A stretch of 64,000 nucleotides of DNA from Oscillospiraceae bacterium. GTDB lineage: Bacteria > Bacillota > Clostridia > Lachnospirales > Lachnospiraceae. Positions 21,455-43,447 of this stretch are shown here, piece after piece (positions within the stretch are counted from its first letter, which is position 1; every line of letters begins with the position of its first letter). The stretch is from positions 62,001 to 126,000 of the forward strand of contig JAETOO010000005.1 of NCBI GenBank assembly GCA_021771715.1. Reading direction: 5' to 3'. Position numbers and translations under genes: made by a program. Below the pieces are notes generated by a model. It was not told the origin of the DNA. It saw only the letters and a list, made by a program, of their open reading frames with translations, and did no database searches.

Positions 21455-23755
21455 GTGGATATGAATAAGAAGGCTATTATATATAAGAAAGATGATAAAA
21501 AAAAGATTCTGATAGGGAATGTCTTTTTACTGACTGCTCTTTTTCTTGTAGGGGGCGTTTGCATTTTATTTTGGGAAGGCTTTATGAGGGGAAGTGATTT
21601 TTCTTGGACGGTTCAGCAGCCAGATTATTGGAATGCTGTTGTTGAGATGCTATTAGTGTTTTGGGTTTATGTTATATGTTTGACATTACCTGTTAACAAA
21701 GCAATTTATCGATACATAGGGATAATTTTGTCGTTTTTGGTGTTAATGTACATGCATGCCTTTATCTTTGCAATATTGGTAAGTGTTTTGTATGCACTCA
21801 TGATTTACTTAACAGGACATTTAATTTGTAAATCTATATATCGTTACGATAAAGATATAGCGAATGAATTTCATTTTTGTTTTACTATAGGAGTTGCAGG
21901 AATTATTTGTTTGGTTGCAATAGCTTCTTTGCTAAAATGTGGTACTCCAAGTAAGCTTCGTCTCATTTTTCCTATAGTTTTTATTAGTGAACTAATTCTG
22001 GAAAGAAAACAAATAAAACAAAAAATTACTAAAATTGGCGAGGGCTTTGAACATAGATTTAATGCAAAGGGTGATTTTATTGTAGCCGCTATCCTTGCAT
22101 TAATTTGTACGATGGTGACAGTTCAAGCATGTAGAGCTAATCTTGGCATAGATTATGATTCGATCTGGTATGGGCTTAGATCGAATTATGTGTTGGCACC
22201 GGAAAATGGTATATATGATAAGCTTATAATGATGGCTTGTGTATACACATATTCTAAAGGTTTTGAAGTGTTGTCTCTGGTGTTTTCGGGTCTACCATCA
22301 TATAGTTTTACTATTTCTGTAAATGTTATGATGGGAGTATTGACTTTGCTGGCTATATATCGATTAGGACAGATAGCAGGAAGAAAGAGAACAAGTTTAT
22401 TTTTTGTTCTCTTAGTCTCACTTACCCCCTCGATAATGAATATGATGGTGACAGCAAAGTCTGATACGGTGACAATATACCTTCAGGTTGTGGTATTGCT
22501 TTATGCGGCATTGGCCTTAAAAGAAAAAAGGGGGCAATATTTACTCTTATCTTTTTCTGTTTTGCTTTTATCATTTGGTTTCAAACCATCCAGTATTGTT
22601 TTTTCAACGATGATAGCAGTTATTTTGCTAATTATGATAGGCATTGTAAGGATCAGACCGAGCAGAAAGGATTTTTGTTTATTTATAATGCCATTAGCGA
22701 GTATATGTTTTTTGTGGGGACGAACAGTACTAATAACTGGTTATCCAATTACTTCTTTGGTTGTTCCACTATTTGAAAAAATGGGATATTACCCTAAATA
22801 TCCATATACATTGCCGCCAAACGCTACTATGTCGTTAAAAACACTTTTGACAACGGAAGCATTTTGGGAGCGCTTGCTTCGGTTACCAAAAATATTTTTT
22901 TATCCGAATACAAGCGATGTATATACTTTGGAAATGACTTGGTGGGGCCCATTATTTTCAGTTATCTGGATAGTTTCGTTGTTTTCTATTTTATTGAAAC
23001 CGATTAAAGCTATAATGAGGATAAAAGAAGATTGTATATATGGTTTTCAAGTTATTTGTTTTTTAGTTTGCAGCGGAGTAAGTTTAGGTTGTATGATGCT
23101 GTTATCGACACCAGATGGTAATTATTTTGTTTTGATGCATATCCTGACATATTGGTATGCTTCGACTGAACTTTGTAGATTTTGTTTTAAAGGAAAGAAA
23201 CTTGCTGGAATTATTGCAGTTCCTTTAGTTGCGTGTAACTTTTTGCTCTGTATTGCTATCAGTTGGGCTTGGTCAGTAGGATTGACCCCAATTGAAATGG
23301 ATAATTATGGTTATTACAATCATGAAGTCAAGCAAGTCAATCCACAAATGCAAGCGAATGAGCTTACGGAGGTTTATGAATATTTAAAGAGCAGCGAGAT
23401 TCAGAGGATGATTGTTTGTTCTGAAAAAGAAGCGGCGATGTTTAAATTGCCTGCTGTAGTGGAAAGTTATACTCATCAAAAAGTTTGGGCACCTGAAACT
23501 ATAAAAACAGTTGAAGAGCTTTATGGTTTTTTAAAGTATGCAGATGTAGATAGTATATTGTTTGATGAGGCATATTCTTCAGTAGATAGCCATTGTACAG
23601 AACTAGTAAAAGCACTTATAGATCAAGGAAAGCTAGAGATGGAATTTAGTGCATATGGCTATGCAATATTTCATGTTGTGGATAATAATGAACCAGATGG
23701 CGCTGCGGTACAATATATGAATAATGTACTTGCAAGTTTAGAGAATAATAGTTAA
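21455..23755 (+). CDS. GT-C fold polytopic glycosyltransferase candidate
   Basis: A 766-residue membrane protein with about 12 to 14 hydrophobic helices and a roughly 150-residue polar C-terminal domain. After an early loop it carries NLGIDYDSIWYGLRSNYV; this acidic motif in the first outside loop is typical of GT-C enzymes (ArnT, PMT and relatives) that take sugars from polyprenyl phosphates. GTG 21455 was preferred since GAGGAG lies five bases ahead; ATG 21461 is possible. The gene directly precedes an amino-sugar set with an ArnC-like GT2 and EmrE-like pair, so it may transfer that sugar to the surface glycan. No exact family could be named, so the call is cautious. Confidence 0.65.
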   Translation: MDMNKKAIIYKKDDKKKILIGNVFLLTALFLVGGVCILFWEGFMRGSDFSWTVQQPDYWNAVVEMLLVFWVYVICLTLPVNKAIYRYIGIILSFLVLMYMHAFIFAILVSVLYALMIYLTGHLICKSIYRYDKDIANEFHFCFTIGVAGIICLVAIASLLKCGTPSKLRLIFPIVFISELILERKQIKQKITKIGEGFEHRFNAKGDFIVAAILALICTMVTVQACRANLGIDYDSIWYGLRSNYVLAPENGIYDKLIMMACVYTYSKGFEVLSLVFSGLPSYSFTISVNVMMGVLTLLAIYRLGQIAGRKRTSLFFVLLVSLTPSIMNMMVTAKSDTVTIYLQVVVLLYAALALKEKRGQYLLLSFSVLLLSFGFKPSSIVFSTMIAVILLIMIGIVRIRPSRKDFCLFIMPLASICFLWGRTVLITGYPITSLVVPLFEKMGYYPKYPYTLPPNATMSLKTLLTTEAFWERLLRLPKIFFYPNTSDVYTLEMTWWGPLFSVIWIVSLFSILLKPIKAIMRIKEDCIYGFQVICFLVCSGVSLGCMMLLSTPDGNYFVLMHILTYWYASTELCRFCFKGKKLAGIIAVPLVACNFLLCIAISWAWSVGLTPIEMDNYGYYNHEVKQVNPQMQANELTEVYEYLKSSEIQRMIVCSEKEAAMFKLPAVVESYTHQKVWAPETIKTVEELYGFLKYADVDSILFDEAYSSVDSHCTELVKALIDQGKLEMEFSAYGYAIFHVVDNNEPDGAAVQYMNNVLASLENNS

Positions 23756-23799
23756 AATAAGCGTAAATGGAAATGTAGTATTAGAAAGGGAGAGAAGAA

Positions 23800-24927
23800 G
23801 TGATTCATTTTAATATACCACCATATCTTGGAAATGAAATTGAGAATATTAAAAAGGCAATAGAGAATAAAAAGATTTGCGGTGACGGTGAATTTACGAA
23901 AAAGTGCAATAAGTGGCTGGAGGAGAAAACGGGAACTCCTAAAGCGTTATTAACTACATCCTGTACACATGCTACAGAGATGGCCGCATTGTTGTGCGAC
24001 ATTGCTCCTGGAGATGAGGTGATTATGCCCTCCTATACGTTTGTGTCAACGGCGGATGCATTTGTGTTAAGGGGAGCAAAGGTGGTTTTTGTTGATATTC
24101 GCCCGGATACTATGAATATTGACGAGACGTTGATTGAGAATGCAATTACAGATAAGACAAAGGCGATTGTGCCGGTACATTATGCGGGCGTAGCCTGCGA
24201 GATGGATACAATAATGGAAGTGGCTGAAAAATATCATCTTGCGGTTATTGAGGATGCTGCCCAAGGGATTATGTGTACTTACAAAGGAATGCCTTTAGGG
24301 ACTATTGGAGATTATGGATGCTATAGTTTTCATGAGACCAAAAATTACTCTATGGGTGAGGGCGGTGCACTTCTCATAAAAAATGAGGAGAAAATAGAGG
24401 AGGCAGAGATCCTGAGAGAAAAAGGGACAAATCGCAGCAAATTTTTCAGAGGACAAATTGACAAATATACGTGGGTGAATTTTGGCTCTTCCTATCTGCC
24501 AAGCGATATGAATGCTGCCTATTTATATACGCAGTTGGAGGAAGCAGATAAAATAAATAATGACCGGTTAAAAACGTGGTCGCATTATAAGGAAGGTTTA
24601 TCTGACTTGCAGAACAGAGGAATTATTGAGTTGCCATTTGTGCCAGATGGCTGTGTTCATAATGCGCATATGTTTTACGTGAAAGCAAAGGATCTTGAGG
24701 AGAGGACAAGGTTAATCGAATTTTTGAAAGAGAATGGTATTCAGGCTGTATTTCATTATATTCCGTTACATACAGCACCGGCAGGTATAAAGTATGGAGT
24801 ATTTCGAGGTGAAGACAGATATACTACAAAGGAGAGTGAGCGCTTGTTGCGTTTACCGATGTATTATGGACTCAAGGAAGATGAAACAGAGTATGTGATC
24901 GATAAAATAAAAGAGTTCTATAGATAG
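23800..24927 (+). CDS. rffA: dTDP-4-amino-4,6-dideoxygalactose transaminase-like (WecE/RffA)
   Basis: A 375-residue PLP-dependent aminotransferase of the DegT/DnrJ/EryC1 family, nearly the same length as E. coli WecE. It includes FNIPPYLGNE, TTSCTHATEMAAL, the cofactor Asp in VIEDAAQG, and SFHETKNYSMGEGGAL, whose Lys should bind PLP. The HETKN form is typical of WecE/RffA rather than ArnB. WecE aminates dTDP-4-keto-6-deoxyglucose to dTDP-Fuc4N. GTG 23800 follows AAAGGGAGAGAA. The next genes are an SDR and an ATP-grasp ligase in a tight operon. No rmlA/rmlB is in the window, so the keto sugar would come from elsewhere. Confidence 0.88.
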   Translation: MIHFNIPPYLGNEIENIKKAIENKKICGDGEFTKKCNKWLEEKTGTPKALLTTSCTHATEMAALLCDIAPGDEVIMPSYTFVSTADAFVLRGAKVVFVDIRPDTMNIDETLIENAITDKTKAIVPVHYAGVACEMDTIMEVAEKYHLAVIEDAAQGIMCTYKGMPLGTIGDYGCYSFHETKNYSMGEGGALLIKNEEKIEEAEILREKGTNRSKFFRGQIDKYTWVNFGSSYLPSDMNAAYLYTQLEEADKINNDRLKTWSHYKEGLSDLQNRGIIELPFVPDGCVHNAHMFYVKAKDLEERTRLIEFLKENGIQAVFHYIPLHTAPAGIKYGVFRGEDRYTTKESERLLRLPMYYGLKEDETEYVIDKIKEFYR

Positions 24928-24938
24928 GAGGATAAAAA

Positions 24939-25955
24939 ATGATTATTGTAATGGGCGCGACGGGATTTGTCGGTATGTATACTGTGGAAAAGCTGATCTC
25001 TGAAGGGGAAAGGGTGATAGCTACCGGGAGAAATAAAAAGCTGGGAGCAGTATTGGAAAATATGGGAGCTGAGTTTATCACTTTAGATATTACACATAAG
25101 GAGGACTTTGAAAAGCTTCCGCAGGATGGCGTGGAAGGAGTAATTTTGCTTGCGGGGCTGCTTCCTGCTAATGCGAAGGTAGATATAAATGAGGATGAGA
25201 ATGCTGCGGATTATTTTGAGGTAAACGTAATTGGCACAATAAATGTCCTCGAGTATTGCAGAAAGAATAATATCAGGAAAGTAATTTCGTGCTGTTCCTA
25301 TTCGGATGTAGCAGGTGCTTGGAAAAAAGGAGTCGCAATAAAAGAAACAGAGCCAAGAGATTTTCATTTTACGGGAGATCATGCAGTCTATGTTATTTCA
25401 AAAAATGCTGCAAATGATGTAATGGAGTATTACAATCAGCAGCATCATATGCAGTGTGCCTCTTTTAGATTTCCGCCGGTATATGGTGTAGGACCGCATT
25501 CTGCAATTTATGTAAATGGAAAATATTATAAATCGGGTGTTCAGACGTTTATTGAGAATGCAGAAAAAGGGGATGATATTGAAATCTGGGGAGATCCGCA
25601 TATCACAAGAGATATTATTTATGTAAAGGATGTAGCCAAGGCTTTTTCAATGGCGTTAAAGAGCGATAAAACATATGGCCTATATAATATGACATCAGGT
25701 ACGGAATTAGACTTGGAAGAGCAGGTAAAAGCAATCATTGAGGTATTCGGCGGAGAAAAGAAATCGAATATAGTTTATAGACCTGACAAGCCTAATAATA
25801 CACCATCCTTCTTGTTTGATATGACGAAGGCAAAAGAAGATTTTGGTTTTGTTCCGGAATATACTTCCTATATTGAAATTATGAGGGATTATAAGAAAGA
25901 ATTGGAAAGCGGAAAATGGACACAGTTGATCGAGAACCGGCAGAAGGAGCAATAA
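24939..25955 (+). CDS. NAD-dependent sugar epimerase/dehydratase (SDR)
   Basis: A 338-residue extended short-chain dehydrogenase. The nucleotide-binding motif is GATGFVGMY at the N-terminus and the catalytic Tyr-Lys pair is YVISK. The middle contains FRFPPVYGVG and RDIIYVKDVAKA, usual in sugar-nucleotide epimerases. AGGAGG precedes the ATG 11 bases after the transaminase. It may epimerise, reduce or dehydrate a nucleotide amino sugar or its keto precursor; the substrate is not readable. Its 3' end sits nine bases before the ATP-grasp start, so the three genes are likely co-translated. Confidence 0.85.
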   Translation: MIIVMGATGFVGMYTVEKLISEGERVIATGRNKKLGAVLENMGAEFITLDITHKEDFEKLPQDGVEGVILLAGLLPANAKVDINEDENAADYFEVNVIGTINVLEYCRKNNIRKVISCCSYSDVAGAWKKGVAIKETEPRDFHFTGDHAVYVISKNAANDVMEYYNQQHHMQCASFRFPPVYGVGPHSAIYVNGKYYKSGVQTFIENAEKGDDIEIWGDPHITRDIIYVKDVAKAFSMALKSDKTYGLYNMTSGTELDLEEQVKAIIEVFGGEKKSNIVYRPDKPNNTPSFLFDMTKAKEDFGFVPEYTSYIEIMRDYKKELESGKWTQLIENRQKEQ

Positions 25956-25963
25956 AGAAACAG

Positions 25964-27106
25964 ATGAAGAGGATAGCGATAATAGGGGCAAATGATTTTC
26001 AGAATCCTTTGATTATAAAAGCAAAAGAAATGGGATATGAAACTCATGTGTTTGCATGGGAAGATGGCTCGATTGGTGAAAAAACGGCAGACTATTTTTA
26101 TCCCATCAGCATTGTTGAGAGGGAAAAGATATATGAGGTTTGTAAACAAATCGAGCCAGATGCGGTTGTGACAATTGCTTCGGACTTGGCTGGGATAACG
26201 GTAAATTATGTCGCCAGACGATTGGGACAGGCTTGCAATAGTGAAAGAAGTGTTGTTATCTCTACAAATAAATATGAGATGCGCAAAGCATTTAAAGCGG
26301 CGGGAGTCCCGATACCAGAGTTCCATGAGATTACTTTGAATTCAGATTTCGAAGAAGTAAAAAAAATGAGGCTGCCTGTTATTGTCAAGCCAACCGATCG
26401 TTCAGGAAGCAGGGGAATAACGAAACTGGATAGCTTTGAGGGGTTGGAAAAAGCTGTATTAGACGCAGTTGAAAATTCATTTGAAAAAAAGGCTATCGTC
26501 GAGGAATATCTGGAGGGCAGCGAATATAGCTGTGAGTGTATTTCTTTTAAAGGAAAACATTATTTTTTAACTTTGACTAAAAAGTTTACGACAGGTGCTC
26601 CGCATTTCATTGAGACAGGGCATTTGGAACCCTCTGATTTAGACCCTGAGATGGTAGAACGAGTTAAAAACGAAATATACAAAGCGTTGGATGCTTTGGA
26701 GATTGAGTATGGTGCTTCACATTCTGAATTTAAAATTGATGGGGAAGGAAATATCAGAATTATTGAGATAGGAGCCAGAATGGGAGGAGACTGTATTGGC
26801 TCTGACCTGGTTCAGATTTCTACAGGGTATGATTTTGTTAAAATGGTGATACAGGTTGCAACTGGCTGTGAGCCGGATTTGCAGAAGGTATCTGAACCGA
26901 AGGTCGCAGCTATAAAGTTTATTTTTTCTGAGAGTGATTATGAGAATCTGAAAACGCTTCAGAGAGAATGTCCTGACAAAATATACTATGTAAGCGACAT
27001 TCATATATCAAAAGAAAATAGAATTGTCGATAGCGCATCCAGATATGGTTTTTACATTTTAGCATGCGATTCGAAAGAGGAGGCAATGGAATTAGCTCAG
27101 TTATGA
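25964..27106 (+). CDS. ATP-grasp carboxylate-amine ligase
   Basis: A 380-residue ATP-grasp enzyme. It has an N-terminal pre-ATP-grasp fold (IAIIGANDFQNPLI), the lysine segment VIVKPTDRSGSRGI, the EEYLEGSEYSCE clamp, and the metal-binding IIEIGARMGGD. Such enzymes activate a carboxylate as acyl phosphate and join it to an amine. The start at ATG 25964 fits the family; a longer in-frame start overlaps the preceding gene. Between an amino-sugar transaminase and small EmrE-like proteins, a plausible task is attaching an amino acid or other acid to the 4-amino sugar (inference). A carbamoyl phosphate- or biotin carboxylase-like role is less likely given the context. Confidence 0.8.
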   Translation: MKRIAIIGANDFQNPLIIKAKEMGYETHVFAWEDGSIGEKTADYFYPISIVEREKIYEVCKQIEPDAVVTIASDLAGITVNYVARRLGQACNSERSVVISTNKYEMRKAFKAAGVPIPEFHEITLNSDFEEVKKMRLPVIVKPTDRSGSRGITKLDSFEGLEKAVLDAVENSFEKKAIVEEYLEGSEYSCECISFKGKHYFLTLTKKFTTGAPHFIETGHLEPSDLDPEMVERVKNEIYKALDALEIEYGASHSEFKIDGEGNIRIIEIGARMGGDCIGSDLVQISTGYDFVKMVIQVATGCEPDLQKVSEPKVAAIKFIFSESDYENLKTLQRECPDKIYYVSDIHISKENRIVDSASRYGFYILACDSKEEAMELAQL

Positions 27107-27459
27107 AGAAAGAAAGAAATATTCGAATAAAGGATATTGTTTTGCTACAGGCGATCGTAGTGATCTACACATTGTCCGGTGTAGCAGCAAAGTTTGCATC
27201 TGGAAATGGCTTTTTGTCGTTTAAATTTATTTTGTTTTATGGAGTAGAGATCGGAATACTCGGTGTGTATGCGGTATTATGGCAGCAAATTATAAAGAAA
27301 TTTGATTTGTCTATTGCATATGCAAACCGTTCGATTGCGTTATTGTGGTCTATGGTGTGGGCTGTCGCTTTTTTCCATGAGAGTGTCACAATAAAAAATG
27401 TAATAGGAGTATTGATTGTCATTACAGGGACAATCATAATTAATAGCGATGATAGATAA
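27103..27459 (+). CDS. EmrE/EamA-type small membrane protein (ArnE-like)
   Basis: A 118-residue protein with four hydrophobic helices, matching the short multidrug resistance/EamA fold. It includes LSGVAAKFAS and the closing segment IKNVIGVLIVITGTIIIN, typical of the last helix in this family. The ATG overlaps the ATP-grasp stop (ATGA) and the gene overlaps the next by 11 bases. A pair of such proteins next to an ArnC-like GT2 recalls ArnE/ArnF, which flip undecaprenyl-phosphate-aminoarabinose. A flippase role here is inferred from context. Confidence 0.78.
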   Translation: MKKERNIRIKDIVLLQAIVVIYTLSGVAAKFASGNGFLSFKFILFYGVEIGILGVYAVLWQQIIKKFDLSIAYANRSIALLWSMVWAVAFFHESVTIKNVIGVLIVITGTIIINSDDR

Positions 27460-27787
27460 ATATATTTGCTTGTTGTTATTGGCGGTTCTGGTGTCCTCTT
27501 CATCCCAAATACTATTGAAAAAGAGTGCTCAAAAAAAATATGACACATTTTGGAAAGAATATCTTAATCCATATGTTGTTGTAGGATATGGCATGATGGT
27601 GCTGTCTACGTTACTGATTATTCTGGCATATCATGGTACTGCTTATAAAAATGGACCGATGATTGAATCACTGGGATATATTTTAATATTATTTTTGAGC
27701 TATTTGTTCTTTAAAGAGCCGATTACGAAGAAGAAGATACTTGGAAATTTGTTAGTGCTTTTAGGAATATTTATATTTTACGTTTAG
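27449..27787 (+). CDS. EmrE/EamA-type small membrane protein (ArnF-like)
   Basis: A 112-residue, four-helix protein, the partner of the previous gene, which it overlaps by 11 bases. It has LVSSSSQILLKKSA in the first helix, the usual loop-Lys of small multidrug resistance proteins, and LGYILILFLSYLFFKEPIT followed by ILGNLLVLLGIFIF. Two unequal small subunits encoded in tandem point to a heterodimer, as for ArnE/ArnF. The GT2 gene begins 15 bases later. Confidence 0.78.
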   Translation: MIDKYICLLLLAVLVSSSSQILLKKSAQKKYDTFWKEYLNPYVVVGYGMMVLSTLLIILAYHGTAYKNGPMIESLGYILILFLSYLFFKEPITKKKILGNLLVLLGIFIFYV

Positions 27788-27801
27788 AATGAGGGATTGT
27801 T

Positions 27802-28740
27802 ATGGATATATCAGTTGTAGTGCCGGTATACGGGTGTAAAGCAGCACTCAGAGAGTTATATGAACGATTAACGGTAACACTTGGCAAATTAGTAGATACT
27901 TATGAGATAATTTTGGTCAATGATAAATGTCCGCAGAATTCCTGGGAAGTGATTGAAAAAATCTGTGAAGAAGATGTACATGTTGTCGGAATTGAGATGG
28001 CTCGGAATTTTGGACAGATTCAGGCTATTACAGCGGGATTGGATTATAGTTCTGGTGATTGGGTTGTAGTCATGGATTGTGATTTGCAGGATCGGCCGGA
28101 AGAGATAGTTAATTTATACAACAAGGCGCTGGAAGGATATGATGCAGTTTTTGCCAGAAGAAAGAATCGAAAAGATTCGTTTTTGAAGGTTTTTGTTTCA
28201 AAAATGTTTTATAAGGTTTACAATTTTGCTTCCGGGGGAAATTATGACCCGGCTATTTGCAATTTCAGTATTTGTAAAAGAATTGTGATTGACAATTATT
28301 GTAAAATGCGTGAGTTACATCGGGCATATGTTATCTATATAAAATGGTTAGGTTTTAATCAGACGGCTATTGATGTTGAACATGATGAGAGAAAAGAGGG
28401 AAAATCATCCTATAATTTCAAACGGCGAATGAAAATGGCCGGAGAGATTTTAACGTCCCAGTCAGATAAATTGTTGAAGCTTACAGTGGGAGTGGGCTTT
28501 ATAATTACATTGGCATCGTTGATTGCTATTCTCGGGATTATTATTCAGCATTTTACAGTACATGTCCCGGCGGGGTGGTCTAGTATGTTAGCAACGGTAT
28601 GCTTAATGGGTGGCCTTACAATAATGTGCATTGGGGTTGTAGGCATATATGTAGGAAATATCTTTATGCAGTCGAAGGAAAGACCGCTTTATGTTGTAAG
28701 GAATGTGCTGAATGGTACAAAATATGATAAAAATAATTAG
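27802..28740 (+). CDS. ArnC/GtrB-like polyprenyl-phosphate glycosyltransferase
   Basis: A 312-residue protein: an N-terminal GT2 domain (ISVVVPVYG, ILVNDKCPQ, MARNFGQIQAITAGLD, VMDCDLQDRPEE) followed by two C-terminal membrane helices (about 227-250 and 264-290), the ArnC/GtrB architecture. These enzymes move a sugar from a nucleotide to undecaprenyl phosphate on the inner face. It follows two EmrE-like genes and precedes a strong terminator, so it closes the operon. The likely substrate is the amino sugar made by the three upstream enzymes (inference). Confidence 0.88.
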   Translation: MDISVVVPVYGCKAALRELYERLTVTLGKLVDTYEIILVNDKCPQNSWEVIEKICEEDVHVVGIEMARNFGQIQAITAGLDYSSGDWVVVMDCDLQDRPEEIVNLYNKALEGYDAVFARRKNRKDSFLKVFVSKMFYKVYNFASGGNYDPAICNFSICKRIVIDNYCKMRELHRAYVIYIKWLGFNQTAIDVEHDERKEGKSSYNFKRRMKMAGEILTSQSDKLLKLTVGVGFIITLASLIAILGIIIQHFTVHVPAGWSSMLATVCLMGGLTIMCIGVVGIYVGNIFMQSKERPLYVVRNVLNGTKYDKNN

Positions 28741-28763
28741 ATTCTGTTAAGATTAACATTAGA

Positions 28764-28822
28764 ATAGGTGCAAAGACGTTAGTATAGATTTAGACTGTTT
28801 CGTTTTTGTACCTATATTTTTG
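28764..28822 (+). terminator. Hairpin terminator closing the Arn-like operon
   Basis: ATAGGTGCAAAGACG (28764-28778) pairs with CGTTTTTGTACCTAT (28801-28815) over 15 positions, two of them G-U, with a 22-nt loop. It is followed by ATTTTTG. The outer ATAGGTGCAA recurs at 28851-28860 with TGTACCTAT at 28866-28874, forming a second shorter inverted repeat. Confidence 0.6.
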
Positions 28823-28850
28823 AAAAAGCTAAACGGGCCAGATAAAATGC

Positions 28851-28874
28851 ATAGGTGCAATGTAGTGTACCTAT
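28851..28874 (+). repeat. Second ATAGGTGCAA / TGTACCTAT inverted repeat
   Basis: ATAGGTGCAA (28851-28860) faces TGTACCTAT (28866-28874), repeating the arms of the terminator 36 bases upstream. Whether it is an operator, a mobile-element end or a decayed duplicate is unknown. A further GCTCAG/CTGAGC inverted repeat lies at 28915-28948, before the DUF2971 gene. Confidence 0.55.
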
Positions 28875-28972
28875 ACGTAAACAGTATGATAGATTTTGTA
28901 AAAACAAGAGAAAAGCTCAGCCATTTTTATCTTGGTTTGTACCTGAGCAGGATGAAAGGAATGTAAGGTAGT

Positions 28973-29926
28973 ATGGATAGTTATTTGATTGATTTATGTG
29001 AATTGAGTAATAGTATTGAGTACACATCCTTTTTTTCGAATGCGAGCAAAGATATATATCATTATACTTCTCCGCTTGCTTTTCAAAGCATAATCGAAAA
29101 TCAAAAGCTTCGTTTTTCGGATAGATATTATCTTAATGATGGCAGTGAAGGAAAAGCTATTATGCAACTCTGTTTAGACGAGTTAGATGAGGTTGCTCCT
29201 GATGATCCTAAATTTAAAGAGTGTTTGAAAGAGGAATGCAATAAGCGCTACAAGAAACCACAACGGGATAATTTCTATGTTTTTCAGTGCTCGTTTTCTG
29301 TCGATCAAGATAGTCTGTGCCTGTGGAATTATTACACGAAAGGTGATTGCCTTAGAGGTTATAATTTGCATTTTAAGTCTGGGGAATTAAGAAGAAAAAT
29401 AGAGATGCAGCCTGATAAGTGTTGTGATAAAGGAACCAGTGGAAGGCCTAAGGGACGAACTCCGCAGATAATTAGCGCAAAGGTAGTTTATAAAAAGAGA
29501 GAACAAAAGAAAATTGTTAAGCAGGTGATTCAACAATTTTATAATTTTTCTGTTGCACATAGTCGATGCGATGAAAAGTTTACAATAGAAATTCTTGTTG
29601 ATAAATTGATGATTTTAGGAGTTTTTTTTAAAAAGGAGTGCTTTGAACCTGAGCATGAGTACAGATTTGCTATATCTCTTTATTTAAATAACGACGGAAC
29701 CTATGCAGCGATAAAAGAGAAACAAGAGTTTTTGGAAAAAGATGGGCTTTTTGTTCCATATGTTGATCTTAAATTTGCACCAGAGGCGCTTAAATCGGTT
29801 TATGTGTCGCCAACTTTAGATTTGGAAAGAGCAAGGGAAAGCATACTTCGTTTATCACAGGGGAAATTCCCGCAGTTTTCCGACGTTAGCCTTATAAAAC
29901 AATCTGGGATACCGCTGAGATATTAA
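28973..29926 (+). CDS. DUF2971 domain protein
   Basis: A 317-residue protein. Early on it has IYHYTSPLAFQSII and LRFSDRYYLND, and later CSFSVDQDSLCLWNYYTKGD, which together match DUF2971. It has no signal peptide or membrane helix. Members are of unproven function and occur often in variable and defence-type regions. It is out of place among glycan genes: flanked on the left by 232 bp of inverted repeats and on the right by 310 bp of AT-rich gene-free DNA, suggesting a separately acquired gene. AAGGAATGTAAGG precedes the ATG. Confidence 0.75.
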   Translation: MDSYLIDLCELSNSIEYTSFFSNASKDIYHYTSPLAFQSIIENQKLRFSDRYYLNDGSEGKAIMQLCLDELDEVAPDDPKFKECLKEECNKRYKKPQRDNFYVFQCSFSVDQDSLCLWNYYTKGDCLRGYNLHFKSGELRRKIEMQPDKCCDKGTSGRPKGRTPQIISAKVVYKKREQKKIVKQVIQQFYNFSVAHSRCDEKFTIEILVDKLMILGVFFKKECFEPEHEYRFAISLYLNNDGTYAAIKEKQEFLEKDGLFVPYVDLKFAPEALKSVYVSPTLDLERARESILRLSQGKFPQFSDVSLIKQSGIPLRY

Positions 29927-37142: not shown

Positions 37143-38552
37143 ATGCTTTTTAGTTCCATGATATTTCTGTGGGGATTTCTTCCGATTACATTGATTAGCT
37201 ATTACCTGATCCGACCAGAATGGCGAAATTACGTTTTGCTGATTGCCAGCATTGTTTTTTATGCGTGGGGTGAACCGTTTTATATTCTACTGATGCTTTT
37301 TTCCGTTGGATTGAATTATAGTATGGGAATTGTGCTTGATAAAGTGAAAAGGGAGAGGCACCGGAAGGGTGTCCTCTTTTTGTGCATTGTAATAAATATT
37401 GGGCTTTTATGGTACTTTAAATATTCTACAAGATGTTTTATGTTCTTAAACAGAGTATTTGAGAAGGATGTTATAGCGGTACGGAATATTGTTTTGCCGA
37501 TCGGTATTTCATTTTATACATTTCAGGCTATGTCTTATGTAATTGATCTTTATCGAAGAGAGATTTCTGTGCAGAAAAATCCTTTGGACCTGGCTTTGTA
37601 TATCAGTTTTTTCCCACAACTAATTGCCGGCCCTATCGTGAAATACAAGGACGTAAACGATCAGCTCAGAGAGAGATTGGTTACAGAAGAAGGATTTGCA
37701 TATGGTATAAAGCGATTTACGTACGGATTGGGGAAAAAGGTAATTATTTCGAATACCGTAGCTGAGATTGCAGATAGCATTTTTGCAGTTGAAATGACAC
37801 AGTTAAACACGGGGTTGGTGTGGTTTGGGATAGGCATGTATACATTGCAGATCTATTTTGATTTTTCCGGCTATTCTGATATGGCGATCGGTTTGGGAAG
37901 AATGTTCGGATTTCGATTCTTGGAGAATTTTGATTACCCTTATATTTCGGAATCAATTCGGGAATTTTGGCGCAGATGGCATATGTCCTTATCCGGATGG
38001 TTTCGCGATTATGTGTATATTCCACTAGGTGGTAATCGGAAAGGAAAAATTCGTACGTATGTAAATTTGTTTTTGGTTTTTGTATTGACGGGAATCTGGC
38101 ATGGAGCGAGTCTGAACTTTTTGGCCTGGGGTTTATGGCATGGATTTTTCAGTATTTTGGAGCGACTTGGCCTTGGGAAACTTTTGAAGAGGAATCCGGT
38201 GAAGATATTGAATCATGCCTATATGATGTTTGTAGTAGCAGTCGGCTGGGGAATGTTTCGGTGTGATTCTTTGACGGAGGCGTATAGTGTGCTGCGTGCT
38301 ATGTTTCACTGGAAAGTGGAGAGTGCATATGTACTGAGAAATTTTGTGTCGAATCGGGATTGGCTGATCATCGGAGTGGCGCTTGCAGGATGTGGTGTAG
38401 TGCAAAGCCTGATTCCGCGAATGGAAGGCTGGATTAAGTCAGAGAATAGCGGAGGTATGATAGAATTCGGTGTGTTAGTGTTGATTCTGATGCTTAGTAT
38501 TATGTACTTAGTGAGTGGCACATATAATCCGTTTATTTATTTTAAGTTTTAG
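37143..38552 (+). CDS. MBOAT family O-acyltransferase (AlgI-like)
   Basis: A 469-residue polytopic membrane protein of the MBOAT family. It opens MLFSSMIFLWGFLPI, typical of AlgI-type proteins; the middle has FFPQLIAGPIVKY, and the catalytic histidine lies in LTGIWHGASLNFLAWGLWHG. These proteins transfer an acyl group across the membrane to a surface sugar. The next gene, nine bases away, encodes an AlgJ/AlgX-like protein, which fits the known AlgI-AlgJ partnership for acetylating an extracellular glycan. The acyl donor is not shown here; acetyl is the usual case. Confidence 0.92.
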   Translation: MLFSSMIFLWGFLPITLISYYLIRPEWRNYVLLIASIVFYAWGEPFYILLMLFSVGLNYSMGIVLDKVKRERHRKGVLFLCIVINIGLLWYFKYSTRCFMFLNRVFEKDVIAVRNIVLPIGISFYTFQAMSYVIDLYRREISVQKNPLDLALYISFFPQLIAGPIVKYKDVNDQLRERLVTEEGFAYGIKRFTYGLGKKVIISNTVAEIADSIFAVEMTQLNTGLVWFGIGMYTLQIYFDFSGYSDMAIGLGRMFGFRFLENFDYPYISESIREFWRRWHMSLSGWFRDYVYIPLGGNRKGKIRTYVNLFLVFVLTGIWHGASLNFLAWGLWHGFFSILERLGLGKLLKRNPVKILNHAYMMFVVAVGWGMFRCDSLTEAYSVLRAMFHWKVESAYVLRNFVSNRDWLIIGVALAGCGVVQSLIPRMEGWIKSENSGGMIEFGVLVLILMLSIMYLVSGTYNPFIYFKF

Positions 38553-38560
38553 GAGAGACG

Positions 38561-39712
38561 ATGTTCAGATATCGTAATAAAATATTAATTAGTACATTCT
38601 GTGTGATTCTGGTTCTTCCTTCTGTATCTTATCCTTTTGTGAAGCGTTATATTGATACGGAAAATTATGAAAATAGGGAACTGGCAGAAAAACCAGAGCT
38701 TTCGGTAACATCTGTTACTGAGTATCCGGCTGCTTACGAAGCCTGGTTTGACGATCATCTGCCATATAAAAACCAACTGCAGTTTATAAACAGAGCTTTG
38801 GATTTAGTGGTGTTTCATAGTCTGGATTCTGATCAGGTGTTGCTGGGAAAAGACGAGTGGTTGTTTTATAAGGCGGCAGAATGTATTGATAATTATAGGG
38901 GAATTTACTCTTACTCTGAAAATGAACTAAAAGAGATGGAAGAGAATCTGCGGTTTGTCTGGGAGTGGTTTCAGGCGAAGGGAATAGAACTGGTGATTAG
39001 CATTGTGCCAAACAAGGCTGAGGTGTATAGTCGGTTTATGCCGGATGATATTCAGGTAGTGAATCCGGTTAGCCTGAGTCAGCAAGCGGTCGAATATATA
39101 CAGCAAAATACGGATGTCCCTGTTCTGTATGATTTGGATGGATTGCAGACGGCATCGGAACGATATCAGGTCTATTGTAAATATGATACGCATTGGAATT
39201 ATATTGGCGGATACTATGGAGCAAAAGCGATACTTGGTCTGCTTGGAAAAAAATTGCCGGAATGTACGGAGGATATGGTAGTAGAGTGGTCTGAATCTGT
39301 ATTTAAGGCTGCTCCACAGCAGAGAGGAACAACGTATGATCTGTCTATGATGGCCGGCTTGCCGCATCTGCTGGATGTCAGGCGGGATAAAAAGTATATG
39401 GTGAATTATAAACCGGAAGTACAGTATGAGTTTGAGTCATTGGAAAGTTTTTCGGATATTGACACGATGCACTATACATCTGACGCTGCAGATCAGCGAA
39501 GGGTTATGATGGTATGTGATTCCTTCGGCAATCTGGACATGCCTTATATTGCAAAGGAATTCGCAGAGTGCAGTTGTATTCATTATTCGCGGTGTACGTT
39601 AGATTTTTTGACAGAACAGAAGCCAGATATTGTGATCTTTCAGTTTGTGGAACGACAAGCGCAGAGATTTGATCAGACGATTTTGAACATAATAAGCAGA
39701 GACGAGGGATGA
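38561..39712 (+). CDS. AlgJ/AlgX-like SGNH-type (DHHW) acyltransferase partner
   Basis: A 383-residue protein with an N-terminal membrane anchor (about 8-26) and an outside domain. Its motif DTHWNYIGGYYG corresponds to the DHHW/DxHW signature of AlgJ/AlgX proteins (the Asp and His of the catalytic set). MMVCDSFGN near residue 315 supplies the serine in a GDS-like block. The N-terminal ENYENRELAEKPE and WFDDHLPYKNQL also match this family. It directly follows the MBOAT gene and should pass the acyl group to the surface glycan. The next gene follows within two bases. Confidence 0.85.
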   Translation: MFRYRNKILISTFCVILVLPSVSYPFVKRYIDTENYENRELAEKPELSVTSVTEYPAAYEAWFDDHLPYKNQLQFINRALDLVVFHSLDSDQVLLGKDEWLFYKAAECIDNYRGIYSYSENELKEMEENLRFVWEWFQAKGIELVISIVPNKAEVYSRFMPDDIQVVNPVSLSQQAVEYIQQNTDVPVLYDLDGLQTASERYQVYCKYDTHWNYIGGYYGAKAILGLLGKKLPECTEDMVVEWSESVFKAAPQQRGTTYDLSMMAGLPHLLDVRRDKKYMVNYKPEVQYEFESLESFSDIDTMHYTSDAADQRRVMMVCDSFGNLDMPYIAKEFAECSCIHYSRCTLDFLTEQKPDIVIFQFVERQAQRFDQTILNIISRDEG

Positions 39713-39713
39713 G

Positions 39714-41129
39714 TTGAGCGGGATGATTGAGATGATAAAGAAGTGGGAACGAAAAAGGCTTATACTTTTGATTTTGTGTATGATTTGTTCCGGATTGTTT
39801 TTTGTGTCGTTCATGTACAGTGATATTTTGGAAACAACCCGTGATGGAATGACCTTTTGGGATGCACTATTTGCCGGAAGGATTCGGGATTTTTACATCA
39901 TGAATGAGGATGTAGTAATCAGCAGCCGGTTTGGCACGAGCGGTGCAGCCATTTATGATTTCCCGGTGTATTTTGTTTTTGCCGTTTGGAATTTTCCATT
40001 ATGGCTGTATGAACACTTTTCAGGAGAATATGCGTTGGATCGGCTGCTTGGAGTTTTGTGGGCGAAAAGTATTTCACTTCCATTTCTAGCAGGGATCAAT
40101 CTGGTAATGATAAAGATAGGGAAGCAAATCAAAGGAACCGAGTATGATGTGGATTTATCCATACTGATGTTTGGAAGTTCTGTGCTGCTGTTTGTGCCAG
40201 TGCTTGTGATGGGACAGTATGATGCGTTTTGCCTTTTGTTTATACTTTTGGGAGTAGATGCATACATTTCGGGCCGCCAAAAGCAGTTTATTGTGTGGTT
40301 TGCGGTAGCGGCAGCGTTTAAATTATTTGCATTTTTTGTGTTTATCCCCCTTGTCCTGCTAAAAGAAAAAAAGCTGATAAGGATGTTTGCAAAGCTCGGG
40401 GCGGGGTGTTTATTTTTGGCTTTCTGGAAAATTGTACAGAAATTCTTTTTTGTTGTCAGTGATCGCGGGACAGATTATGTGAGTGGGCATCTTCTTACCT
40501 TTATTTTTCAGAGTCAGACAGGAATGGTGTATGGGACCAGTTCCATTTTTGTGGCGGTGTTTTTGCTGGTTTGTATGTATTGTTATTTTAAAGCGCCTGT
40601 GAAAGAAGAAGAGACAGGTATTTGGGCGATATATGTAAGCTTTATGGGATTGGCATCCTTTTTTGTCACGAGCCTGACTCATCCGCAGTGGAGTCTGTTG
40701 CTGCTTCCATTCACTGTGCTGCTGGTTCTCTGCAGAAGTCAGGAGGAAAGAAAAACGGGAATGTGGATTTCTACGATTTTTTCGACGGGCTTGCTGTTAG
40801 CGGAGTTTATATATTATTATTGGGTATTCAATGTAAAGACCAGCGTATATACATTGGCCGGAAAGCTGTTTTATAATGAGAAGACAGATATCGGATATTC
40901 GATACGAAATTCAATCGAAAATAAGCTTGTGGGTTTCGATATAAATTATCTAAATCTAATCGGCGGAGGCATTTTTGTGGGGGGGATACTGTTTTTCTTG
41001 TATTGGGCACACCCGGACACAGGGCGTGCAAAATTTGCCAGACTGGAATGTTCCGTCGAGAGCATTCTGATTGTCAGAGAGCTTGTATTGATAGGATCAG
41101 CAGGGTTACTGATTGCGCTCATGCTTTAG
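39714..41129 (+). CDS. GT-C fold polytopic glycosyltransferase candidate
   Basis: A 471-residue membrane protein with about 10 to 12 helices. The segment FPVYFVFAVWNFP and the later VMGQYDAFCLLFILLG resemble integral membrane mannosyl/glucosyltransferase-like proteins of the GT-C class; the D in GQYDA is the usual landmark. A TTG start at 39714 is two bases from the previous stop; ATG 39723 is equally possible. It lies in the same run as a GtrB-like GT2 and may use its product. Function remains provisional. Confidence 0.6.
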   Translation: MSGMIEMIKKWERKRLILLILCMICSGLFFVSFMYSDILETTRDGMTFWDALFAGRIRDFYIMNEDVVISSRFGTSGAAIYDFPVYFVFAVWNFPLWLYEHFSGEYALDRLLGVLWAKSISLPFLAGINLVMIKIGKQIKGTEYDVDLSILMFGSSVLLFVPVLVMGQYDAFCLLFILLGVDAYISGRQKQFIVWFAVAAAFKLFAFFVFIPLVLLKEKKLIRMFAKLGAGCLFLAFWKIVQKFFFVVSDRGTDYVSGHLLTFIFQSQTGMVYGTSSIFVAVFLLVCMYCYFKAPVKEEETGIWAIYVSFMGLASFFVTSLTHPQWSLLLLPFTVLLVLCRSQEERKTGMWISTIFSTGLLLAEFIYYYWVFNVKTSVYTLAGKLFYNEKTDIGYSIRNSIENKLVGFDINYLNLIGGGIFVGGILFFLYWAHPDTGRAKFARLECSVESILIVRELVLIGSAGLLIALML

Positions 41130-41160
41130 GTGCGCTATAATAGGATGTCAGGGGAGAGAA

Positions 41161-41955
41161 ATGGAGAAAAGAGACATGAAGGTCGTTATTTTAGCCGGTG
41201 GTTTCGGCACGCGGATTTCTGAAGAGTCTGAGTACAAGCCGAAGCCGATGATTGAGATCGGTGGGATGCCGATTCTCTGGCATATTATGAAGGAATACTC
41301 CTACTATGGATTTCATGAATTTATTATCTGTGCGGGGTACAAGCAGCATGTTATTAAGGAATGGTTTGCGGATTATTTTCTTCACACGTCAGATATCACG
41401 TTTGACTTTACACAGGGGAATAAAGTGATCGTGCACAACCAGCATTCGGAGCCGTGGAAGGTGACGGTGGTGGACACCGGGCTCCACACGATGACCGGCG
41501 GGCGGATCAAGCGCGTGCAGCCTTACATCGGCAGCGAGCCGTTTATGATGACGTACGGGGATGGCGTGTGCGATGTAGATATTGAGAAATTGTTGGCGTT
41601 TCACGAATCACAGGGGAAGGTCGCGACGCTGACCTCTGTGCTGCTGGAGCAGCAGAAGGGGATTCTCGACATCGGCGGAGACAATGCGGTGCACTCCTTC
41701 CGAGAGAAGAGCATTTCGGATGGCGCGCCGATCAATGCGGGGTATATGGTGCTGAATCCGGAGATTTTTGACTATATCGACGGGGATGAGACGGTCTTTG
41801 AGAAGCAGCCGCTGGAGCGTCTGGCCCGTGAGGGGCAGCTGATGTCGTATTCGCACAAGGGCTACTGGCAGTGTATGGATACGAAGCGGGAGAAGGATAT
41901 TCTGGAAGGGCTGTGGGCGCAGAATCGGGCGCCGTGGAAGAAGTGGCAGGATTGA
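41161..41955 (+). CDS. rfbF: Glucose-1-phosphate cytidylyltransferase
   Basis: A 264-residue enzyme making CDP-glucose from glucose-1-phosphate and CTP, the first step to CDP-3,6-dideoxyhexoses. The signature LAGGFGTRISEES and KPKPMIEIGG are strongly diagnostic, along with FIICAGYKQHVIKEWF and MTYGDGVCDVD. ATG 41161 has GGGGAGAG before it; ATG 41176 is the next candidate. rfbH follows, and rfbG lies at 47432, so all three early enzymes are present, although not in the usual F-G-H order. GC content rises sharply at this gene. Confidence 0.95.
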   Translation: MEKRDMKVVILAGGFGTRISEESEYKPKPMIEIGGMPILWHIMKEYSYYGFHEFIICAGYKQHVIKEWFADYFLHTSDITFDFTQGNKVIVHNQHSEPWKVTVVDTGLHTMTGGRIKRVQPYIGSEPFMMTYGDGVCDVDIEKLLAFHESQGKVATLTSVLLEQQKGILDIGGDNAVHSFREKSISDGAPINAGYMVLNPEIFDYIDGDETVFEKQPLERLAREGQLMSYSHKGYWQCMDTKREKDILEGLWAQNRAPWKKWQD

Positions 41956-42050
41956 GCAGATGACGGAGGCATAGCAGGAATGTCCGGTTCTGTGCAGACG
42001 AAAGAAGCATACCAAGACAGGGATAGAACAATCTGGAAAGTAAAAAATGC

Positions 42051-42086
42051 GTCAAAGCCTGTAAATTCAATATATTTAGGCTTGAC
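42051..42086 (+). other. Inverted repeat before rfbH
   Basis: GTCAAAGCCT (42051-42060) pairs with AGGCTTGAC (42078-42086) in a 9-bp stem with one bulged A and an AT-rich loop. It sits 20 bases before the rfbH start; no T-run follows. It may modulate translation or be a weak terminator in the 151-bp gap. Confidence 0.4.
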
Positions 42087-42106
42087 AGAATAGGAAGGAA
42101 AACGAA

Positions 42107-43447
42107 ATGGCGAACTGGAAAAATGAAGCGGAGGCGCGCGAGCAGATCAAAGCGCTGGTCGCGGAGTATTATCATGATTTTAAGGAGAAGCGGGAACCGT
42201 TTGTGCCTGGCGACAGGATCAGCTATGCGTCCCGTGTCTTCGACGAAAAGGAAATGTGCAGTCTGACGGACGCGATGCTGGACTTCTGGTTAACGACAGG
42301 GCGCTTTTCGGAGGAATTTGAAACAGAATTTGCAAAATGGATCGGCGTGAAGTATGCGCATCTGGTGAATAGCGGATCGTCTGCGAATTTGATTGCATTT
42401 ACTGTCCTGACGGCCCCGGAGCTGGGAGAACGCAGGATTCAGCGCGGCGATGAAGTGATCACGGTGGCGTGCGGTTTTCCGACTACGGTGGCGCCGATGC
42501 TGCAGTATGGCGCTGTGCCGGTATTCGTGGATGTGACCGTGCCGCAGTATAATATTGATGTGGCGCAGTTGGAGGCAGCACGCTCTGAGCGGACAAAAGC
42601 AGTGATGATCGCACATACGCTCGGGAATCCGTTTGATCTGGCGGCTGTGAAATCGTTCTGTGAGAGACACCATCTCTGGCTCGTGGAGGACAACTGTGAT
42701 GCGCTCGGCACAGAATATACGATAGACGGTGAGACCAGATTCAGCGGGACCTGGGGCGATATCGGGACAAGCAGCTTTTACCCGCCGCATCATATGACGA
42801 TGGGCGAGGGCGGATGCGTTTACACAAATGATGCGAAGCTGCACCGGCTGATTCTCTCGTACCGTGACTGGGGCCGCGACTGTATCTGTCCGTCCGGGCA
42901 TGACAATTTCTGCGGGCATAGATTTGACCGGCAGTACGGCGAGCTGCCACAGGGGTATGACCACAAGTATGTCTACAGCCATCTGGGCTACAATCTGAAG
43001 GTGACGGATCTGCAGGCGGCGGTAGGCTGTGAGCAGCTAAAGAAATTTCCGTCCTTCATCGAGCGTCGCCGCCACAACTGGGAGCGGCTGCGTGAGGCAC
43101 TGGAGCCGGTGGCGGATCGGGTGATCCTTCCGGAGGCTGCCCCGAACAGCCGGCCTTCTTGGTTCGGTTTCCTGATCTCAGTGAGGCCGGAGAGTGGCTT
43201 GGATCGAAATGCAGTCACAAAATATATTGAGGAGCACAATATTCAGACGCGTCTGCTCTTCAGCGGCAACCTGATCAAACATCCGTGTTTTGATGAGATC
43301 AGAGGAACAGATGCCTATCGAGTAGTCGGAGATCTGACAAATACGGACTATATTATGAATCATACCTTCTGGGTGGGGGTCTACCCGGGCATGGCGGACG
43401 AGATGATTGATTATATGGCGAAGATTATTCGAGAGGCTGTTTCGTGA
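42107..43447 (+). CDS. rfbH: CDP-4-keto-6-deoxyglucose 3-dehydratase
   Basis: A 446-residue PMP-dependent dehydratase (E1) that removes the 3-hydroxyl in CDP-3,6-dideoxyhexose synthesis. SSFYPPHHMTMGEGG carries a His where transaminases have Lys, the hallmark of RfbH/DdhC. HLVNSGSSANLIAF and ACGFPTTVAP are also typical. AGGAAGGAAAACGAA precedes the ATG. The reaction normally needs an NAD(P)H-dependent reductase (E3, DdhD), which is not visible in the window. The product would feed the ThDP enzyme and reductase downstream. Confidence 0.95.
   Translation: MANWKNEAEAREQIKALVAEYYHDFKEKREPFVPGDRISYASRVFDEKEMCSLTDAMLDFWLTTGRFSEEFETEFAKWIGVKYAHLVNSGSSANLIAFTVLTAPELGERRIQRGDEVITVACGFPTTVAPMLQYGAVPVFVDVTVPQYNIDVAQLEAARSERTKAVMIAHTLGNPFDLAAVKSFCERHHLWLVEDNCDALGTEYTIDGETRFSGTWGDIGTSSFYPPHHMTMGEGGCVYTNDAKLHRLILSYRDWGRDCICPSGHDNFCGHRFDRQYGELPQGYDHKYVYSHLGYNLKVTDLQAAVGCEQLKKFPSFIERRRHNWERLREALEPVADRVILPEAAPNSRPSWFGFLISVRPESGLDRNAVTKYIEEHNIQTRLLFSGNLIKHPCFDEIRGTDAYRVVGDLTNTDYIMNHTFWVGVYPGMADEMIDYMAKIIREAVS

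Follow-up and report, generated by a model that had tools for sequence, protein, structure and literature searches.

A candidate ATP-grasp route to an acid-capped, polyprenyl-linked 4-amino sugar in a Gram-positive bacterium

Seven genes and a terminator-like hairpin

In a relative of gut Clostridia, seven open reading frames, all on the + strand, occupy positions 21455..28740 of the window (the whole 64-kb stretch of DNA that was analysed), exactly where the initial annotation had placed them, and comparative counts of locus composition indicate that this gene set is far from chance. The run begins with a glycosyltransferase of 766 aa (21455..23755), followed by a WecE-type dTDP-4-keto-6-deoxyglucose transaminase (23800..24927), an extended SDR (24939..25955; Epimerase PF01370, 137.8 bits), a predicted ATP-grasp carboxylate-amine ligase that resembles L-amino-acid ligases (25964..27106), two EamA/SMR-type small membrane proteins (27103..27459 and 27449..27787), each a putative half of a flippase, and a GT2 protein that resembles polyprenyl-phosphate-sugar synthases of the GtrB/ArnC/PgfS type (27802..28740; Glycos_transf_2, 86.5 bits). 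For the ATP-grasp gene we prefer the ATG at 25964, 8 bases past the SDR stop codon, to the listed ORF start at 25916, because relatives start likewise. The first small protein likely starts at 27103, where ATGA is common to its start and the ATP-grasp stop. The reading frames of the small pair overlap at 27449-27459, as had been claimed, and a comparable overlap is found in 60/60 pairs of one set and 15/16 of another. Folding also confirmed the closing terminator on the same strand, with a hairpin at 28764..28815 (stem 28764-28778/28801-28815, -21.6 kcal/mol, z -5.4) that is followed by AUUUUU and that none of 200 shuffled sequences equalled in stability. A consensus terminator scan of 28740-28973, which allows loops of up to 8 bases, did not list the hairpin, whose loop is longer. 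A Pfam scan of the seven proteins found neither a formyltransferase nor a deacetylase, in agreement with the initial annotation, and the two Formyl_trans_N genes in the genome both lie on other contigs.

The transaminase is readily assigned, with scores of 647 bits for TIGR02379 (cut-off 434.85) and 641.3 bits for NF008687 (cut-off 375) among the NCBIfam models, and its solved relatives include 4piw/4zah and 6blg. With the ArnB model NF008658 it scores only 194 bits against a cut-off of 631. By sequence, the enzyme is therefore of the WecE type rather than ArnB, and its predicted product is dTDP-Fuc4N. RmlB (493 bits) is encoded away from the operon on contig C17, adjoined by an RmlA-like gene. 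In Longicatena caecimuris DSM 29481, RmlB, RmlA, WecE, ATP-grasp, GT2, the small pair, and a multi-TM protein are encoded in a single run (locus L064). This strain and Hespellia stercorisuis DSM 15480 (L031) are cultured carriers of such loci. The SDR is harder to place: of its 34 NCBIfam matches, the 25 listed all fall short of their cut-offs. We rejected its assignment as a dTDP-glucose 4,6-dehydratase, for which it scores 88 bits against 365 in a genome that has a true RmlB.

The ATP-grasp protein has a predicted fold closest to those of L-amino-acid ligases, two amino-acid ligases being among its best solved relatives. PurK, PurT, and carboxylases are also among the closest folds, so that the substrate cannot be read from the fold. 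The protein shares 22-23% identity with the L-amino-acid ligases BL00235 (3vot) and BacD (3wnz), which have the same fold, but its proposed acceptor is a sugar amine. Its ETGH and GARMGGD stretches align with ETSH and AARFAG of a BacD chain (W332A mutant). In BacD, the glutamate and histidine of ETSH and the arginine that follows are residues with functional roles. The LAL_C2 domain (PF18603) is absent from the window ligase (Pfam, E 0.001), and we therefore call it LAL-like rather than a LAL member; other ATP-grasps match this domain at 50.2 bits (locus L176) or, below cut-off, 24.0 bits (L219). Across 397 genomes of the family, the core ATP-grasp subfamily is sharply bounded, with a gap in scores from 508 to 262 bits, and is carried by 29 genomes. 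A few relatives bear the source names 'ATP-grasp domain-containing protein' or 'biotin carboxylase'.

The membrane-associated genes fit an export-and-attach route by resemblance, which supports that part of the initial annotation. The small proteins match EamA (PF00892) at 27.0 bits, slightly below the cut-off of 28.2, and at 35.6 bits, above it. For the first, the NCBIfam ArnE and ArnF models score 38.2 against 92 and 28.6 against 99, respectively, while the second has no NCBIfam match. Their description as EmrE-like holds only loosely: the EamA likeness stands, but the SMR model PF00893 matches nothing anywhere in the genome (E 0.001). The TM1 glutamate of SMR drug exporters was not found, with acidic residues in at most 6/61 sequences in any column, and that column at the edge. 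Instead, lysines are conserved, with K30 in 60/61 sequences of the first protein and K24 in 61/61 of the second. Together, the two look like polyprenyl-phosphate-sugar flippases. The GT2 protein scores 191 bits for PgfS (cut-off 500) and 171 bits for ArnC (NF007986, cut-off 529), and thus has no equivalog match, but aligns over residues 2-302 with PDB 5ekp (sll0501, a GtrB protein) at 165.7 bits, and with the ArnC structure 9hwj at 145.6 bits. It is GtrB/ArnC-like in sequence. The product of the first gene has the GT-C fold expected of an attaching enzyme. No homologue of it was detected among 80 ATP-grasp loci (E 1e-4), where other multi-TM proteins, some without any Pfam match, are found. 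The window also encodes a Wzm/Wzt polysaccharide export pair.

Gene context of the ATP-grasp ligase

Genomes with the core ATP-grasp ligase usually carry WecE (27/29, compared with 107/368 other genomes; p 6e-12 by a statistic that ignores phylogeny), with WecE absent from 8 of 31 core loci drawn regardless of partners. The initial annotation had expected the transaminase and ligase to keep the GT2 protein and small pair as partners. This expectation stands for GT2, present within 8 kb in 28/31 of these unbiased loci, and is only half borne out for the small pair, present in 16/31 and absent from 15. Neither obligatory partnership nor a fixed seven-gene unit describes the family, since gene order varies and about half of the unbiased set is missing the pair. 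Among core loci of the best relatives the pair is within 8 kb in 59/80 and absent in 21, and when only loci with both flanks reaching 8 kb are counted, it is absent in 9/22 of the unbiased set and 11/40 of the best relatives. The pair also occurs in 7/40 WecE loci without the core ligase, and near WecE a GT2 gene is little more frequent in the presence of the core ligase (20/22) than in its absence (27/40; p 0.06). Nine out-group ATP-grasp loci have neither GT2 nor the small pair within 8 kb.

Of 40 WecE loci that lack the core ligase, 15 have a PseH-like GNAT within 5 kb, compared with 0/22 and 0/70 loci that have the ligase, in a search that covered this one GNAT family, used a non-random draw for the 40 loci, and counted related genomes. 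None of the 40 combined a GNAT with any ATP-grasp within 5 kb, and 16 had neither a GNAT nor another ATP-grasp; at 9 kb, two loci (L189 and L197) showed a GNAT together with a weak ATP-grasp match (61 and 71 bits). Out-group ATP-grasps also occur in a second sugar route. In six of 10 loci examined, the cluster includes a PseI-like gene, which adjoins the ATP-grasp gene in four, and two of these six loci carry the same SDR. No PseH above cut-off was found in 12 genomes. From the WecE and PseI contexts, and from the absence of loci with both enzymes within 5 kb of WecE, GNAT and ATP-grasp, the ATP-grasp enzyme seems to take the slot of a 4-N-acetyltransferase, and these comparative counts back its earlier placement in the expected N-acylating position. 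Its place in the pathway would be that of PseH/WecD-type 4-N-acetylation of 4-amino-4,6-dideoxy sugars. In contrast to those enzymes, the ligase would use ATP and a free acid rather than acetyl-CoA, and its fold is unrelated.

The SDR is a frequent partner of the ATP-grasp enzyme. Close relatives occur in 6/397 family genomes, adjoining an ATP-grasp gene in five, with the sixth ending at a contig edge. WecE-type or GT2/small-pair loci account for three of these five and pseudaminic clusters for the other two. Its presence in pseudaminic clusters makes it less likely that the SDR acts on the sugar ring in the Fuc4N route. In another set of five loci, it abuts the ATP-grasp gene in two and lies 0.4-1.7 kb away in three.

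Proposed pathway and alternative explanations

We propose, with a probability of about 0.63, that the operon makes an N-acylated 4-amino-4,6-dideoxy sugar, capped with an acid by the ligase, and exports it on undecaprenyl phosphate. Family identities, the fold classes of the ligase and GT-C protein, gene co-occurrence, and the separation of the PseH-like GNAT from the ligase were computed directly; from these we infer what the enzymes act on, the sequence of the reactions, and the identity of the acid and of the acceptor. In this pathway, RmlA and RmlB, encoded elsewhere in the genome, would supply dTDP-4-keto-6-deoxyglucose, which the transaminase would convert to dTDP-Fuc4N. The ATP-grasp enzyme would then spend ATP to amidate the 4-amino group with a free carboxylic acid, for which an amino acid is the likeliest choice, standing in for the acetyl-CoA enzyme of other clusters, with the SDR aiding acylation, perhaps by readying or finishing the acid. 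GT2 would transfer the capped sugar onto undecaprenyl phosphate, the small pair would flip the lipid-linked product, and the GT-C protein would join the sugar to an acceptor outside the cell, which may be the polysaccharide that the Wzm/Wzt proteins of the window export.

The same pathway could instead install a hydroxy acid or other non-proteinogenic carboxylic acid, with the SDR responsible for making or completing it, a possibility that we consider less likely. The SDR accompanies the ATP-grasps of two sugar routes, adjoining in 5/6 family genomes as described above; moreover, locus L064 has a ketopantoate-reductase-like gene (209 bits, cut-off 141) flanked by two ATP-grasps, and L131 has MaoC and hexapeptide genes downstream of GT2. 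However, the SDR is 1.7 kb from the ATP-grasp gene in L014, where it lies between WecE and GT2, and 1.1 kb away in L020. Extended SDRs of PF01370 act mostly on nucleotide sugars, and the amino-acid ligases among the best solved relatives of the ATP-grasp enzyme also favor an amino acid as the cap.

It is unlikely that the ATP-grasp enzyme acts later, once the sugar is linked to Und-P, or that its substrate is a different small molecule, with the 4-amino group otherwise free. The genome's own second GT2-ATP-grasp-small-pair set lacks WecE in the 11-kb stretch read, and therefore such ligases can travel with lipid-carrier genes rather than a transaminase. WecE abuts the core ATP-grasp gene in just 8/23 same-strand cases of the unbiased set, but does so in 45/71 cases of the other set. 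Further, pseudaminic clusters L163 and L207 place the ATP-grasp among soluble sugar enzymes, and the nine out-group ATP-grasps without GT2 or the small pair within 8 kb also argue for action on the soluble sugar. Least probable is an ordinary Fuc4N capsule cluster with a drug or polyamine exporter there by chance: EamA/SMR proteins have many roles and the Pfam scores are weak, but chance does not account well for a pair found at 59/80 and 16/31 core loci and at 0/9 out-group loci.

Relationship to known systems

The Arn pathway, which produces Und-P-Ara4N, shares with this locus a GT2 protein, small pair, and GT-C protein, and we infer an Und-P-linked 4-amino sugar here as well. However, the locus has WecE instead of ArnB, includes an ATP-grasp ligase, and has no formylation or deformylation genes (ArnA, ArnD) in the run. 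No Arn model tested (ArnB, ArnC, ArnE, ArnF) reaches its NCBIfam cut-off, which rules out assigning the locus to Arn on these models. The label 'Arn-like' proved too narrow, given the WecE-type transaminase and a GT2 protein that scores higher for PgfS than for ArnC. Three-component Und-P-sugar systems such as GtrA/GtrB/Gtr and CsbB/GtcA/YfhO comprise a GT2 synthase, a small flippase, and a multi-TM attaching enzyme (PMC7389260, PMC11127046). We regard the locus as a three-component decoration system for a 4-amino sugar rather than an Arn operon because of its WecE-type transaminase, its GT-C protein, and a small pair and GT2 protein that reach no Arn model. It shares the GT2, small putative flippase, and multi-TM attaching enzyme of those systems, but differs in that the putative flippase is an EamA/SMR-type pair and the sugar is purpose-made, probably an acylated amino sugar.

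The nearest experimental precedent, by analogy, is the type B flagellin peptidylamido-glycan of C. difficile. This glycan is Fuc3N-Gly-Ala-taurine, specified by CDR20291_0244-0247, with N-3 of Fuc3N acylated by glycine (PMC5207245, PMC5207246). The two Gram-positive systems share a DegT transaminase (FdtB-like in C. difficile) and an ATP-grasp gene, and C. difficile offers an amino acid amide-linked to an amino-dideoxyhexose; it differs in using a 3-amino sugar placed on flagellin, and in having extra cyclodeaminase-like and FemAB-like genes. The same papers report that mutation of the ATP-grasp gene removed the whole terminal moiety, sugar and peptide together, and that the authors' candidate sugar acylator is the FemAB-like protein, not the ATP-grasp (PMC5207245, PMC5207246). 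This preference lowers the odds of our main reading. We found no paper combining an ATP-grasp enzyme with Fuc4N or Qui4N in one open-licence library, and such papers may exist in print elsewhere.

If the acid-capping pathway is correct, many gut bacteria could vary a surface sugar by its N-linked acid, beyond the identity of the sugar, and the ligase gene would mark where to look for such variants. Amide caps alter charge and antigenicity, which is relevant to contact with phages, antibodies, and host lectins. The pathway would further explain in simple terms what a widespread, generically named group of ATP-grasp proteins does, and would provide a testable source of N-acylated variants of Fuc4N and pseudaminic acid. 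More tentatively, the ATP-grasp gene, with or without the SDR, may form a swappable amide-capping cassette that replaces acetyl-CoA 4-N-acetyltransferases in both of two unrelated routes, the dTDP-Fuc4N and pseudaminic routes, of gut Clostridia and Erysipelotrichia. Loci with two or three ligases in a row, such as that of Longicatena caecimuris, might then build up a short peptide- or depsipeptide-like chain on the sugar, for delivery to the cell surface by Und-P, the small pair, and the GT-C protein.

The gene run and its spread

Seven genes form one run on the forward strand (21455-28740), as the initial annotation had observed; they encode a GT-C protein, a WecE-type transaminase, an SDR, an ATP-grasp ligase, two small EamA/SMR-type membrane proteins (the small pair) and a GT2. 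The preferable start of the ATP-grasp gene is 25964 (its residues are numbered with the K after the start as 1) and that of the first small gene is 27103, where one ATGA serves both this start and the ATP-grasp stop. The small genes overlap each other by 11 bases, and folding indicates that a strong hairpin followed by a U run closes the operon. The run had been interpreted as an Arn-like amino-sugar decoration system with the ATP-grasp in the place of the formyltransferase; the centre of that interpretation holds, but the label is too narrow.

Among the best 80 of 302 ATP-grasp relatives in genome_contigs, 40 of which had 8 kb on both sides and some of which lay on short contigs, WecE (counted when above 400 bits and no more than 8 kb away) was found near the ATP-grasp in 71 loci and a GT2 within 8 kb in 63; 59 loci had the small pair at that distance, and 52 combined all three. 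Because of the short contigs, whole genomes were drawn too (291 from the class, 397 from the family). Here the scores split into a core subfamily of at least 493 bits and the next matches at no more than 299 bits. Near the core ATP-grasp in this unbiased set are WecE in 23 of 31 loci, GT2 in 28 and the small pair in 16, and none of the three is near any of nine loci of more distant, out-group ATP-grasps. Of the 29 core genomes, 27 have WecE above its cut-off, vs 107 of the 368 others, a comparison that ignores kinship; in G291, one of the two exceptions, the gene is severed by a contig end, as locus L035, on a contig of equal length, shows. Same-strand cases in which WecE directly adjoins the ATP-grasp number 45 of 71 in the first set and 8 of 23 in the second, again with kinship ignored. 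Near WecE, core ATP-grasp loci are enriched in the small pair (within 5 kb, 13 of 22 vs 7 of 40 other WecE loci; p 0.0015) and barely in GT2 (20 of 22 vs 27 of 40; p 0.06).

A ligase in the presumed acetyltransferase position

PseH is a 4-amino N-acetyltransferase. Forty WecE loci that lack the core ATP-grasp, a non-random draw, were searched for one GNAT family; in 15 a member lies within 5 kb of WecE, and two of these members match PseH at 72 bits (cut-off 93). Another ATP-grasp (>100 bits) lies within 5 kb in nine, that of L176 bearing an L-amino-acid-ligase C-terminal domain. The two enzymes never occur together within 5 kb in the 40 loci, weak matches included; at 9 kb both are present in two, L189 and L197, with ATP-grasp matches of 61 and 71 bits. 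Where WecE and the core ATP-grasp occur together, no GNAT of that family is present (none of 22 loci in the unbiased set, none of 70 in the other). Counting against replacement, 16 of the 40 loci have neither such a GNAT nor another ATP-grasp.

Pseudaminic-acid clusters, which belong to an unrelated sugar route, supply the second comparison. Close relatives of the window's SDR, many in a large protein collection, occur in only six of the 397 family genomes and adjoin an ATP-grasp in five; in the sixth the contig stops inside the SDR, which is preceded by a WecE-like end, a multi-TM gene and a GT2-like gene. Among the five SDR loci of the 80, the SDR adjoins the ATP-grasp in L028 and L058 and lies 0.4 kb (L022), 1.1 kb (L020) and 1.7 kb (L014) away in the others. 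In two of the six SDR genomes, G137 (locus L163) and G515 (locus L207), a pseudaminic-acid operon closes with the SDR and with an ATP-grasp less closely related to the core. L163 has PseC, PseF, PseI and PseG over their cut-offs and a dehydratase of the FnlA/PseB kind below its cut-off, and L207, by likeness, has the same set. Of ten out-group ATP-grasp loci, six include a PseI-like gene in the cluster, and in four it directly adjoins the ATP-grasp.

PseH, the only acyltransferase searched for in the pseudaminic loci, is over its cut-off in none of 12 genomes, our own included. Eleven weaker matches (43-88 bits) occur in nine genomes, and five of the 11 are no more than about 4 kb from a WecE gene; in the genomes of the six PseI-like loci, the matches sit on a different contig from the ATP-grasp or are separated from it by 12 kb or more. 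In L163, a hexapeptide-type protein is a possible rival acyltransferase. Judged from gene content, the same kind of ligase thus appears to stand where a 4-N-acetyltransferase is expected, in each of two routes with a 4-amino-6-deoxy sugar in common. We regard this result, which is comparative and not biochemical, as the main new evidence.

Proposed precursor, caps and acceptor

In our own genome, RmlB (493 bits) adjoins an RmlA-like gene on contig C17. One run in Longicatena caecimuris DSM 29481 (L064) encodes RmlB, RmlA, an NDP-hexose 2,3-dehydratase, a GFO/IDH/MocA reductase, WecE, the core ATP-grasp, a ketopantoate-reductase-like protein, two more ATP-grasps, a GT2 and the small pair, together with a multi-TM protein that matches nothing in Pfam. 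By likeness, the order in Massilimicrobiota sp. An134 (L087) is almost the same. These runs connect the system with a dTDP-linked sugar, and they have a gene of an acid-making type amid the ligases. In 11 of the 80 loci and 6 of the 31, the core ATP-grasp has a second or third ATP-grasp (>50 bits) no more than 5 kb away; on the simplest reading, the extra ligases add further acids to the first acid.

Clostridioides difficile type B flagellin bears an Ala-Gly dipeptide and taurine on Fuc3N, with glycine on the sugar nitrogen; an ATP-grasp gene is located near a DegT (FdtB-like) gene, and its mutant bears the core trisaccharide only, so both sugar and peptide are gone (PMC5207245). A Clostridium acetobutylicum sugar cluster was listed earlier with an 'ATP-grasp amino acyl ligase', and the neighbouring DUF4910 protein was suggested to move a peptide or glutamine onto an amino sugar (PMC4000134). 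Amino-acid-capped amino sugars in Clostridia are thus already known; the cited passages contain no link to WecE and Fuc4N, to the small-pair Und-P route or to pseudaminic operons without PseH.

The window further encodes a Wzm/Wzt exporter whose Wzt has a Wzt_C domain, as well as a large multi-domain glycosyltransferase and GDP-mannose-type enzymes just upstream, which make an exported polysaccharide a natural candidate for the acceptor of the decoration sugar; a protein or teichoic acid is possible.

Other surface-sugar and ligase sets

At 41113-48508 are ORFs for a nucleotidyltransferase, a DegT-like PLP enzyme, a TPP enzyme and SDR-like proteins (DegT and SDR-like assigned by eye), a set that, also by eye, looks like a CDP-3,6-dideoxyhexose route in which TPP chemistry adds a branch, as for yersiniose. 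A GT2 (46492-47454) and a GtrA-family flippase (48673-49179) make a second set of the Und-P-sugar type in the window. An MBOAT and an AlgX-like SGNH protein (37143-39712) are a pair of the O-acetylation type, and at 51090-56508 a gene for a 608-aa protein is followed in sequence by those for an MBOAT protein and for an AMP-binding ligase, a make-up reminiscent of a dlt operon.

Elsewhere in our own genome, C41:103937-105061 (L167) is a second WecE gene (614 bits), with a c8-group multi-TM gene on one side, two weakly GT2-matching genes on the other and no ATP-grasp match nearby. At another of the loci, L131 (10841-16233), WecE, ATP-grasp and GT2 are followed by a MaoC dehydratase, a hexapeptide protein, a CDP-glycerol-type transferase and an asparagine-synthase-like protein, and the small pair is absent from the locus. 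In our own genome, a second GT2-ATP-grasp-small-pair set lies at C31:261210-264765 (L219:5211-8766); its ATP-grasp differs from the window's (430 aa, weak LAL_C2), no WecE occurs in the 11 kb read, and a PALP-family enzyme adjoins it. Ten loci (L037, L045, L054, L060, L062, L063, L065, L069, L075 and L077) carry a compact WecE-ATP-grasp-small-pair unit next to a gene of one and the same group, c14; in L037, the locus whose c14 gene was scanned, Pfam makes it an Orn/Lys/Arg decarboxylase. The C31 set likewise has an Orn/Lys/Arg decarboxylase gene, about 3 kb off.
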